DNA of 41,421 nt, taken from the IMG/VR virus record IMGVR_UViG_3300036851_000104, positions 1-41,421 of that record. One strand, 5' to 3'. The position numbers and the translations under genes are program-made. Numbering within the stretch: position 1 is the first letter of the stretch; each line of letters begins with the position of its first letter. Below are positions 2,981 through 32,251 of the stretch, one piece after another. Below the pieces are notes generated by a model that searched no databases, was not told where the DNA came from, and was given only the letters and a program-made list of their open reading frames with translations. This stretch comes from a virus.

Positions 2981-4023
2981 CGTTCACCTTTCGCCCTGCC
3001 CGCCGTGAGCAAACTCCGCTTGTCGTTGGCATCGCCGGACCGACCAAGAGCGGGAAGACCTACAGTGCCCTACGGCTCGCAACCGGCCTTGCGAACGGTG
3101 GGCCTATCGCGATGGTCAACGCGGAAGGTCCGAAAGGCCACCAATATGCGGACACGTTCGACTACCTCGCCACCGACATCACGGCACCCTACCGGCCCGA
3201 GCGTTACACGGAAGTCCTGAAGACAGCGCTTGCCCTCGACCCGCGTCCTGCTGTTGTGATCATCGATTCGCTGTCGCATATGCATGACGGCCCAGGTGGC
3301 ATGTTGGAGTACCACGATGCCGAACTCGATCGGCTTGCAGGCAGTGACAACAAGGCCCGGCTGCGCTCTACATGGTCGGCCTGGGTCAGGCCAAAGGCGG
3401 CCGAGAATGAGTTCATTTATGCCGCGCTTGAGTCCGGCGCCCATCTGATTCTCTGCTTCAGAGCGAAACAGAAAATCAAGCCAGTCAAAGGTAGTGAGCC
3501 GATCGACTTGGGCTGGCAACCGATCTCGAGCGAGCGAGTGTCGTTCGAGACCCTGTTCACGCTGATGCTGCCGCCGCATTCGAAGGGCGTCCCGGACTTG
3601 ACGATTTCGGAGATGCGGGAGCCGTTCGATTCGCTGATTCCGAAGGATCAGCAGATCAGCGAGGCGACGGGTCGGCGATTGGCCGAGTGGGCGCGCGGCG
3701 GGCCTGGGCCGTTGGTGGAGGGGGAAGCTGCGACGCCAGATGGCGGTGAGATGCCGGTACCGGCTGGCGCACCCCCCTCCACGAGCGGCTTCCAGGCGCC
3801 ACACGGGACCGCCAGCGAACCATCCGAGCCGCCGCTCGAACTCACGGCCGCGGTGCTGATTGAGTCGCTGAAACAGGCGGGGATCGCGTCGGAGCGGGCG
3901 GCTGCGGTTGGCCGGGAGTTGTTTCCTGGCCGGTCGGGGGTGAAGGCGATGACGGCGGTGGAGCGCGGCGAATTGTGGCGAGCGTTGCGGGAGCAGCCGG
4001 CCGAGCAGGGAACGCTTGTGTGA
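2977..4023 (+). CDS. RecA-fold ATPase, Sak4-like recombinase
   Basis: This is a 348-residue P-loop ATPase. Residues 21-28 are GPTKSGKT (Walker A) and residues 92-98 are AVVIIDS (Walker B). Phage Sak4-type and related AAA/RecA ATPases load onto single-stranded DNA and promote annealing. A low-complexity Pro/Gly/Ala-rich linker near residues 240-290 precedes a small helical C-terminal domain. Starting at GTG 2977, it overlaps the HNH gene upstream. With the RecE-like nuclease at 1596 it forms a recombination pair. No separate RecT/Erf-type annealase or SSB was recognised, so this ATPase is the likely annealing factor. Confidence 0.8.
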   Translation: MTFTFRPARREQTPLVVGIAGPTKSGKTYSALRLATGLANGGPIAMVNAEGPKGHQYADTFDYLATDITAPYRPERYTEVLKTALALDPRPAVVIIDSLSHMHDGPGGMLEYHDAELDRLAGSDNKARLRSTWSAWVRPKAAENEFIYAALESGAHLILCFRAKQKIKPVKGSEPIDLGWQPISSERVSFETLFTLMLPPHSKGVPDLTISEMREPFDSLIPKDQQISEATGRRLAEWARGGPGPLVEGEAATPDGGEMPVPAGAPPSTSGFQAPHGTASEPSEPPLELTAAVLIESLKQAGIASERAAAVGRELFPGRSGVKAMTAVERGELWRALREQPAEQGTLV

Positions 4024-14296: not shown

Positions 14297-14487
14297 AAGG
14301 AACATCGGATTACTGGCGAGGCATCTTCGTAGGCATAGTGCTCGGAGCAATCGTCTTCGGCTATGACCTCGGCTTCCTTGCCACCATCGGAGCAGGAGTC
14401 ATCGCTGGCTTCACAGTCAGCTTCACATTCAGCATGCTTGAGGAGGCAACCAGCTGGATGCGCAGACGGCTCAGTAGAAGTAGCTAG
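14293..14487 (+). CDS. Small membrane protein before the late region
   Basis: This is a 64-residue protein from ATG 14293. Two hydrophobic stretches (residues about 10-27 and 29-48) suggest two membrane passes, followed by a basic tail MRRRLSRSS. Its stop codon TAG (14485-14487) is the TAG of the first copy of the TAGCCGAAAA motif. Function is unknown. Confidence 0.6.
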   Translation: MKGTSDYWRGIFVGIVLGAIVFGYDLGFLATIGAGVIAGFTVSFTFSMLEEATSWMRRRLSRSS

Positions 14488-29858: not shown

Positions 29859-30260
29859 GTGATCCCCGGCTACGTCTGGGCCGTCCCAATGCGGATCATC
29901 CGCTGGAAGGACGGCGACACCTGCGAGGGATATTGCGACAAAGGCTGGCGCGACTTCACCGACCGTGAAGGCGTCCGGCTACTAAATCTCTGGTGCGCCG
30001 AAATGAACGAACGCGGCGGACCCGAAGCGAAAGCCCACGCGGAACAACTCGCCCCGCCCGGCTCCGTCGTCGTCCTCCACTCGAAAGCGCTCACGAAAGG
30101 AGCGCAATGGGCCTCGGCGCAAATGTCGCTTGAGCGAACCCTCGGCGACATCCGCCTACTTGACGGCTCCGACTTCGCCTCACGAATGATCATGGACGGT
30201 TTCGGGTTCCGCACCGAACCAGAACTAAAGGCATGGCTGAACGCGGTGACGGTCCCATGA
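29859..30260 (+). CDS. Staphylococcal-nuclease-like protein
   Basis: This is a 133-residue OB-fold nuclease homologue. D18 and D20 of DGDT are metal ligands, R40 and E48 correspond to the catalytic Arg and Glu, and R93 in LERTLGDI corresponds to the second Arg of the family. The 8-residue spacing of R40 and E48 equals that of the staphylococcal enzyme. It lacks a signal peptide. A nuclease between connector and tail-terminator genes is unusual. It may act on entering or host DNA, or be a virion protein; this is inference. Confidence 0.82.
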   Translation: MIPGYVWAVPMRIIRWKDGDTCEGYCDKGWRDFTDREGVRLLNLWCAEMNERGGPEAKAHAEQLAPPGSVVVLHSKALTKGAQWASAQMSLERTLGDIRLLDGSDFASRMIMDGFGFRTEPELKAWLNAVTVP

Positions 30261-30706
30261 CCCTCCCCGAAGACCTCCTCACCGACTGGCTCATCAGCTA
30301 CCTCGAAGCCGACACAACACTCACCGCAATGCTCAACGGAGCAGAAGGACAGACAGTCGCACCCGAAGTGATCTGGGACCGACTCGCCTCACCATTCGTC
30401 CGCATCGACAGACTCGACGGCGACGACCTCATGGTCATCGGACTCCACCGCATCTGGTCCGACACCACCTACCACGTCCGCGGAGTCCAACACTGGAAAG
30501 GCTCAGGCAGACCCGACCGCACCGACGTCAACGCGATCGGCGCCCGCATCGACACACTCCTCCATGACCATGAGGAAACCACCGCCACCCTGGAGGTTCA
30601 TTCGTTCAGGGAAGAGCCTGAGCCTCTGCCAGCGGTCACGGAGGCAAACGGTGAGCTCTGGTTGCAAAGCGGCGGAATTTTCCGGCTCAGGGCACGGGCG
30701 CTTTGA
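30257..30706 (+). CDS. Tail-terminator-like protein (DUF3168/completion)
   Basis: This is a 149-residue protein from ATG 30257. LLTDWLISYLEADTTLTAML near the start, then VRIDRLDGDDLMVIGLHRIWSDTTYHVRGV, has the shape of HK97 gp10/gp11-region tail-terminator proteins. The position after gp10-like and before the tail tube supports the call. Confidence 0.68.
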   Translation: MTLPEDLLTDWLISYLEADTTLTAMLNGAEGQTVAPEVIWDRLASPFVRIDRLDGDDLMVIGLHRIWSDTTYHVRGVQHWKGSGRPDRTDVNAIGARIDTLLHDHEETTATLEVHSFREEPEPLPAVTEANGELWLQSGGIFRLRARAL

Positions 30707-30711
30707 GTCGC

Positions 30712-31167
30712 TCAGCGCCTGTACGACGACTCTAGGCTTCGCTCAAGCCGATACTCGACTTCAGCATTGAATGAGCGGCCATTTTCCTTACCCGCTACTC
30801 GAAGTCGATCTTTCAAATCTGGATCGATGCGAAGATTGATAGCAACGATTGAACGGCCACGTTTCTTGATCGGAGTATGAGGCACACCACGATGTCCGAG
30901 GTCGCCTTCGGATAGGTGACGTCGGAGATGGGCAGCGCTAGATGCGAAAACTTCAAGGTTCCCAAAGCTGTCATCGCTGGGATCGCCATTGCGATGGTGG
31001 ACTATTTCGCTTTCGGTCAAGGTGCGCCCTAGCTTGATTGCTGCGATGAGACGAGCACGATTGGTTGATCCGCCGCCTTGGAACCACACTCGCCAGCGAT
31101 CATCGCCAAGTTTCCGAACGGCCTTTATACATCGGATTGGATCGGGATCAAGCTCTGAAAATCGCAT
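30712..31167 (-). CDS. HNH endonuclease fused to Arc-type DNA-binding domain
   Basis: This is a 151-residue protein read right to left from ATG 31167. The HNH core is IVHHRNGDPSDDSFGNLE with a further H (SAAHLRRH). Residues from about 106 (SIVAINLRIDPDLKDRL...ENGRSFNAEVEYRLERSL) match the Arc/ribbon-helix-helix fold. It lies on the opposite strand between two tail genes and is less GC-rich than its neighbours, as expected of a mobile homing gene. A ribosome site AGGA lies within an inverted repeat at the start, so self-repression is plausible. Confidence 0.85.
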   Translation of the reverse strand: MRFSELDPDPIRCIKAVRKLGDDRWRVWFQGGGSTNRARLIAAIKLGRTLTESEIVHHRNGDPSDDSFGNLEVFASSAAHLRRHLSEGDLGHRGVPHTPIKKRGRSIVAINLRIDPDLKDRLRVAGKENGRSFNAEVEYRLERSLESSYRR

Positions 31168-31214
31168 GTCCTACGGGGAATGGTAGCGCTCCGGTCGGAG
31201 GACATCGTAGGACA
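31167..31214 (-). promoter_or_regulatory. Inverted repeat over the HNH-Arc start codon
   Basis: TGTCCTACG (31167-31175) and CGTAGGACA (31206-31214) are perfect 9-base complements 30 bases apart. The arm nearest the gene includes AGGA and reaches the first base of the ATG. It could bind an Arc-type dimer, or form an mRNA hairpin that hides the start. Confidence 0.55.
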
Positions 31215-31231
31215 AAGCGTTTTCGTGTTCG

Positions 31232-31254
31232 CTAGCCGAGCCACTAGCCGAAAA
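31232..31254 (+). promoter_or_regulatory. Start-associated motif copy 8 with a partial duplicate
   Basis: CTAGCCGA (31232-31239) followed by the full CTAGCCGAAAA (31244-31254). ATG 31262 of the tail-tube gene lies 8 bases after the last A. This is the only place with a partial second copy. Confidence 0.75.
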
Positions 31255-31261
31255 GCTCTAC

Positions 31262-32251
31262 ATGCCAGAAGTCGCCTCAATATTTTCAGGCGCCCAGATC
31301 GGCGCGGAAACCACCGCTGGCACTCAAGTTTCAGCATCCAAGCTTCTGAATTACCTGAGCCTTGAGCCGGGCATCACGATCAACTTTAACCGCTTCAAGC
31401 CGATGGGGCAATTGGTCGCGTCGGCGATCACGCCAGGTCAGGACTTCACCGAATGGGGCGTGTCGGGGGCGGGCACGTATTCGGAGCTCGTCTACCCATT
31501 CTGTTCGTTATTGGTGAACACGACGCCGACAACGGTGGAGACGACGGCACGCCGCTGGACGTTTACGCCGGCCGGCCGGTCGGAGGACACGATCAAGACG
31601 TTCACGGTCGAGTCGGGTTCGTCGACGCGGGCACAGAAGGCGACATACGTGCTGTTCAACGGGATGGAACTGACGTTCAATCGCACGGATGGCGTCACGC
31701 TGTCCGGGTCGGCGATCGGTCAGCAGATCCAGGACAACATCACGCTGACCGCGTCGCCGACGGCGATTGAGGACCGGCCGATCCTGCCCACTCACTTGGA
31801 CGTGTGGATTGATGCGACGTCGGCTGGTCTTGGGACAACGAAAATGACCCGCGACTTCAACGCGGTGTTCCGTTGCAATGATCGCTGGGGTGCTGTCTGG
31901 CCGCTCAACTCGACGCTGTCCTCGTTCGCCGCGCATGTGAACTTAGAGCCGACTGTTCAGATCGAGTTGACGATGGCGGCGGATTCGCAGGGGATGGGGT
32001 TCTTGACGAACGCTCGTGCCGGGGACACGCGGTATATCCGATTGGGTGCGACGTCGACGGTGCTGGCTGGTACCACGCAGTTTTACGATCTGCGGGTAGA
32101 CATGGCCGGGAAGATTAGCGCGATCAACGCGTTTGATGACCAGGATGGGATCAAGGTCCTGACCTATACGTTCGATGCGATCTATGACGCAGCTTGGGGC
32201 ACCGGGAAGTATTTGGAAGTGCGGTTGACGAACCAGGTGTCGGCGCTGTGA
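31262..32251 (+). CDS. Major tail tube protein
   Basis: This is a 329-residue protein from ATG 31262. Beta-rich (e.g. FTPAGRSEDTIKTFTVESGSSTRAQKATYVLFNGMELTFNRTDG), it sits directly before the two-gene chaperone block and tape measure, the fixed position of the tail tube gene in siphoviruses. It is long for the family, which may include an extra beta domain. Confidence 0.8.
   Translation: MPEVASIFSGAQIGAETTAGTQVSASKLLNYLSLEPGITINFNRFKPMGQLVASAITPGQDFTEWGVSGAGTYSELVYPFCSLLVNTTPTTVETTARRWTFTPAGRSEDTIKTFTVESGSSTRAQKATYVLFNGMELTFNRTDGVTLSGSAIGQQIQDNITLTASPTAIEDRPILPTHLDVWIDATSAGLGTTKMTRDFNAVFRCNDRWGAVWPLNSTLSSFAAHVNLEPTVQIELTMAADSQGMGFLTNARAGDTRYIRLGATSTVLAGTTQFYDLRVDMAGKISAINAFDDQDGIKVLTYTFDAIYDAAWGTGKYLEVRLTNQVSAL

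Follow-up and report, generated by a model that had tools for sequence, protein, structure and literature searches.

The window analysed here is the whole 41,421-nucleotide stretch of viral DNA, and the locus of interest is a reverse-strand gene that lies between two forward-strand genes. The features of this locus, with positions counted in the window, are as follows.

30233–30706, + strand: left flanking gene, whose position is tail-terminator-like; it is conserved next to the ribbon-helix-helix (RHH) gene in L002, L003 and L183
30712–31167, − strand: HNH-RHH fusion gene, 151 aa, intact open reading frame with an ATG start
30715–30855, − strand: Arc-type RHH domain, residues 105–151 (Pfam Arc/FitA-like, fold match to Arc/CopG/PutA, identity to the RHH genes of relatives)
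30856–30897, − strand: linker, residues 91–104 (pLDDT below 50 at residues 91–107)
30898–31149, − strand: HNH nuclease domain, residues 7–90 (Pfam HNH_3, AF2/Foldseek match to I-HmuI, alignments)
31167–31175, no strand assigned: proximal repeat arm (CGTAGGACA on the − strand), which extends as far as the A of the start codon
31180–31185, − strand: candidate −10 element TACCAT, 12 nt before the ATG and between the repeat arms (TANNNT pattern of relatives)
31196–31204, no strand assigned: third repeat copy, TGTCCTCCG (− strand), in 10-bp tandem with the distal arm
31206–31214, no strand assigned: distal repeat arm (TGTCCTACG on the − strand), a candidate subsite for RHH binding, close to where the −35 region is expected
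31262–32251, + strand: right neighbour, putative major tail protein, conserved in L002–L005, L009, L010, L159 and L183

A preliminary description of this DNA had proposed that the reverse-strand protein couples an HNH nuclease to an Arc-type RHH domain, and this architecture was confirmed by Pfam, PHROGs and AF2/Foldseek. Pfam HNH_3 was matched at residues 39–74 (E 2.9e-5) with 24.1 bits, just below the cut-off of 24.8 bits, and Arc was matched at residues 111–146 with 21.5 bits, above its cut-off of 20.4. FitA-like RHH was matched as well, and Pfam and PHROGs place the Arc/FitA-type region at about residues 109–147; several PHROG HNH and Arc-repressor families concur with Pfam on both halves. 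The AF2 model, computed from an alignment of the window and locus proteins, has a mean pLDDT of 81, with confident HNH and RHH parts and disorder at residues 91–107. Its two top Foldseek matches are the HNH homing endonuclease I-HmuI (probability 0.99) and the Arc repressor. VIA-align gave a Z of 7.1 to I-HmuI for the HNH part and of about 6 to PutA/CopG/Arc for the RHH part. These Z values are moderate, yet the sequence profiles and the predicted folds agree for each half.

The alignments show that the motif VHHRNG...GNLEV...AAHLRRH is kept in the fusion, including H57, H58, N70, H80 and H84. The His of the usual “EHRlv” motif, which lies just before the HNH helix and is present in most relatives, is replaced by Ala38; it is also missing in L046, a viral HNH relative. 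The RHH half has the polar/basic strand and the N-G-R-S-x-N-x-E helix region of Arc-type RHH repressors. By sequence and modelled fold, the protein qualifies both as an HNH nuclease, of predicted activity, and as an Arc-type RHH protein.

The search for further fusions of this kind, which the preliminary description had suggested, yielded none among the matches listed from pattern-based scans (80 HNH loci and 34 RHH loci). A single-protein scan found no close relative of the whole fusion protein in viral or genome contigs, and the matches of the protein in phages and plasmids covered the HNH part only. No HNH-RHH fusion in phages was found in the literature searched; in the available portion of a paper on phosphorothioate systems, RHH is treated in DndE and not as an HNH fusion. 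The fusion is so far known from a single copy.

The corresponding slot was compared in the closest relatives, which were found by searching with the downstream putative major tail gene (L002, L003, L004, L005, L009, L010 and L159) or through the RHH search (L183). All eight carry a stand-alone Arc-type RHH gene of 43–55 aa on the same strand in the same slot, and none of them has an HNH there. The RHH half of the fusion shares 30–53% identity with these genes, whose products score 28.9–40.6 against Pfam Arc (cut-off 20.4), except for that of L010 at 19.1. More distant relatives showed no RHH gene at this position, and in L012, for which the open reading frames were listed, the two flanking genes abut. 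A low-confidence model of the right neighbour matches the folds of major tail and tail tube proteins. Judged from this comparison, the RHH gene is the old resident of the slot and the HNH is the addition in the window phage. Since the relatives keep the antisense RHH gene without the HNH, the locus can be described as an established antisense regulator cassette that gained a nuclease half, and the antisense Arc-type cassette itself is an old feature of this phage group. The earlier picture of a nuclease inserted in the tail operon is therefore half correct.

Four of the relatives (L004, L009, L010 and L159) carry antisense cargo genes beyond the RHH gene. This small cargo differs from one relative to the next (L004 2299–3904, L009 2275–2919, L010 2407–2918 and L159 1248–2392) and resembles a moron cassette; the L004 slot also contains a partial second copy of that contig's own genes. 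In L002, the major tail gene apparently starts at an ATT after a 13-codon leader frame (3967–4003); shortly before this ATT stands GGAGGTG, which resembles a Shine-Dalgarno.

The base composition of the fusion gene bears on its origin. Its GC3 of 0.467 is the lowest among the 41 window genes compared (median 0.735), and the two halves are similar in this respect, at 0.48 for the HNH half and 0.45 for the RHH half. Seven typical window genes have GC3 values of 0.72–0.79 and the RHH genes of the relatives have values of 0.69–0.85; other window genes go down to 0.50, and the low value of the fusion is not unique. Because both halves look foreign in GC3, the fusion probably formed elsewhere, arrived already fused and replaced the resident gene. 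Joining of an HNH in place to the resident RHH gene was considered and is disfavoured, the RHH half being as GC3-poor as the HNH half. No donor of the fusion was found. The window phage has an integrase gene and is therefore probably temperate; no prophages of this lineage were found in sequenced genomes.

The preliminary description had also reported a 9-base inverted repeat at the start of the gene, spanning its ribosome site and first base. The repeat is present and exact, with TGTCCTACG at 31167–31175 and CGTAGGACA at 31206–31214, 9/9 complementary and 30 nt apart. The proximal arm does reach the A of the ATG, but the AGGA and the ATG are separated by only 1 nt, a spacing too short for an ordinary Shine-Dalgarno. 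Against dinucleotide-shuffled versions of the 81-nt start region, the repeat has a p of 0.008, and an equally extreme repeat occurs at 1 of 46 other gene starts. A family of three copies was seen in 2 of 600 shuffles, but also in about 2% of all window tiles, and the 41-kb window holds about six distinct perfect inverted repeats of at least 9 bases with a spacer of up to 40. The three related 9-mers bracket the candidate promoter of the fusion gene (p about 0.008 locally). The repeat is locally unusual, and as an operator it is a candidate only, for which these values are suggestive and not decisive.

A lack of conservation of the repeat beside homologues had been named beforehand as half of a refutation, and its sequence is indeed not conserved: the slot of the relatives was searched for it with a negative result. 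Inverted repeats at the relatives' starts are marginal as a group (p about 0.04). The preliminary description had further expected the empty site in relatives to point to the cutting target. Empty sites were found, in the sense that the RHH gene stands without an HNH in all eight relatives, but the repeat of the fusion was not found at their slot, and nothing indicates that the fusion cuts the known relatives.

In four of six relatives (L002, L004, L005 and L009), the first antisense gene has a TANNNT element at a distance of exactly 6 nt upstream of its ATG, against a background rate of 0.5% of ATGs for this arrangement (P about 8e-9). This is a leaderless-type layout, which indicates that the slot has its own antisense promoter. 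The corresponding −10-like element of the window, TACCAT, is 12 nt from the ATG, as opposed to 6 nt in the relatives, and a consensus promoter and terminator scan of the fusion-gene region found nothing. The fusion gene is probably leaderless or nearly so. The gene may plausibly repress itself through the repeat, since the candidate −10 element and the start lie within the span of the arms; with both arms occupied by a repressor, the upstream part of the promoter and the start site would be covered.

The same repeat could instead act in RNA, by folding in the mRNA and hiding the start codon, as had been proposed earlier for this gene. Folding of this kind is known from the mRNAs of T4 homing endonucleases, and the predicted fold reaches −18.6 kcal/mol (z −2.4) if the distal arm is transcribed. 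However, z drops to −0.7 when 30 nt more of downstream sequence are included, and the promoter pattern of the relatives, together with TACCAT between the arms, places the likely transcription start downstream of the distal arm, so that the RNA would lack this arm. We regard control at the RNA level as very improbable.

A further repeated motif occurs elsewhere in the window. AGCTAGCCGAAAACC, with the core TAGCCGAAAA, is present in nine copies, at 14484, 16400, 17759, 17934, 22599, 23698, 28126, 31244 and 38260 (+), and CTAGCCGA occurs 11 times versus 0.99 expected. At eight of the nine copies, AGCTAGCCGAAAACC stands 7–11 nt before a start codon; the genes that follow are mostly structural and lysis genes, seemingly lacking a Shine-Dalgarno, and the motif also occurs in the relative contig of L002. 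Cluster K mycobacteriophages carry start-associated sequences (PMC3203893), which are alike in position and different in sequence. Alternatively, AGCTAGCCGAAAACC could be a late promoter element. Near the left end of the window, an endonuclease VII-like gene (548–1264) adjoins an exonuclease VIII-like gene.

The fusion might alternatively be mainly a regulator, in which the RHH half keeps its former antisense role (at its own promoter, perhaps also at the major tail gene), while the HNH half is carried along passively or is decaying. This reading accounts for what is conserved at the locus in eight relatives, namely the RHH gene, for the position of the repeat at the promoter and for the loss of the “EHRlv” His beside an intact RHH half. 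However, that His is likewise missing in L046, and the retention of H57, H58, N70, H80 and H84, the confidently predicted HNH fold and the intact frame speak against a passenger; we consider this explanation rather unlikely. Still less probable, in our view, is a nuclease for exclusion, which the lysogen would express from the gene's own promoter and which would cut incoming phages that carry the RHH operator. The integrase and the moron cassette-like slot, with its own promoter and with variable cargo in L004, L009, L010 and L159, are compatible with such a role, but PADLOC gave no defence-system match, operator-like sites were not found at the relatives' slot and the operator of the fusion itself would be a target.

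Among known systems, I-HmuI and the phage HNH homing endonucleases (Pfam HNH_3) share the HNH fold and catalytic residues with the fusion, I-HmuI being the best match of solved structure. I-HmuI is intron-encoded, whereas 30600–31400 gave no match to a group I intron or to any other Rfam family, both flanking genes are intact and the C-terminal DNA-binding part of the fusion is an Arc-type RHH. The Arc repressor and Arc-type RHH regulators (PF03869) have the RHH domain in common with the fusion, and stand-alone versions occupy the same locus in the relatives; the fusion differs by its N-terminal nuclease, and the candidate operator sequence varies among relatives. I-TevI represses itself by binding to an operator that overlies its promoter, and it cuts that operator poorly (PMC2988022). 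It joins nuclease and DNA-binding parts by a flexible linker, as the fusion appears to do, and the site over its own promoter is proven, whereas that of the fusion is proposed. I-TevI differs in its GIY-YIG nuclease, its other binding domain and its intron location; it is the closest working analogy, under which the nuclease would be both held in check and aimed by the RHH half. Phage homing endonucleases are known to combine nuclease domains with DNA-binding domains common to other phage genes, and homing genes adjoin essential genes (PMC10448857); the main text of that paper on domain shuffling contains no mention of Arc, MetJ or ribbon.

The reading we prefer, to which we give about an even chance, is that the gene encodes a homing-type nuclease, free-standing, whose I-HmuI-like HNH is connected through a flexible linker with an Arc-type RHH; the latter would aim the nuclease and repress the gene's own promoter, and the fused gene would have arrived as a unit. 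RHH dimers would occupy the repeats of TGTCCTACG type on either side of the antisense promoter of the fusion and shut it off, and the same domain would bring two HNH domains to related DNA, which they would nick or cut. The fused gene would have entered from a lower-GC phage, replacing the resident RHH gene by recombination at the slot. Membership among the homing endonucleases is only half established: the empty site is present in relatives, and mobility is putative. Points against this reading are Ala38 in place of the usual His, the 12-nt distance of TACCAT from the ATG, the negative consensus promoter scan and the failure to find the repeat at the relatives' slot; with a single known copy, neither mobility nor selection for activity can be demonstrated.

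Homing nucleases owe their specificity to borrowed DNA-binding domains. A more specific proposal, which we put forward as possible but doubtful, is that of a repressor-guided homing nuclease, in which one RHH domain would be both the autorepressor and the aiming part, and in which the ready-made fusion would have spread into the regulator locus of another phage lineage by matching the resident repressor gene. The un-fused repressor at the same site in the relatives and the fusion in the window phage form a before-and-after pair for the borrowing of a DNA-binding domain, and the fusion would be a natural case in which aiming and self-restraint could be one function.
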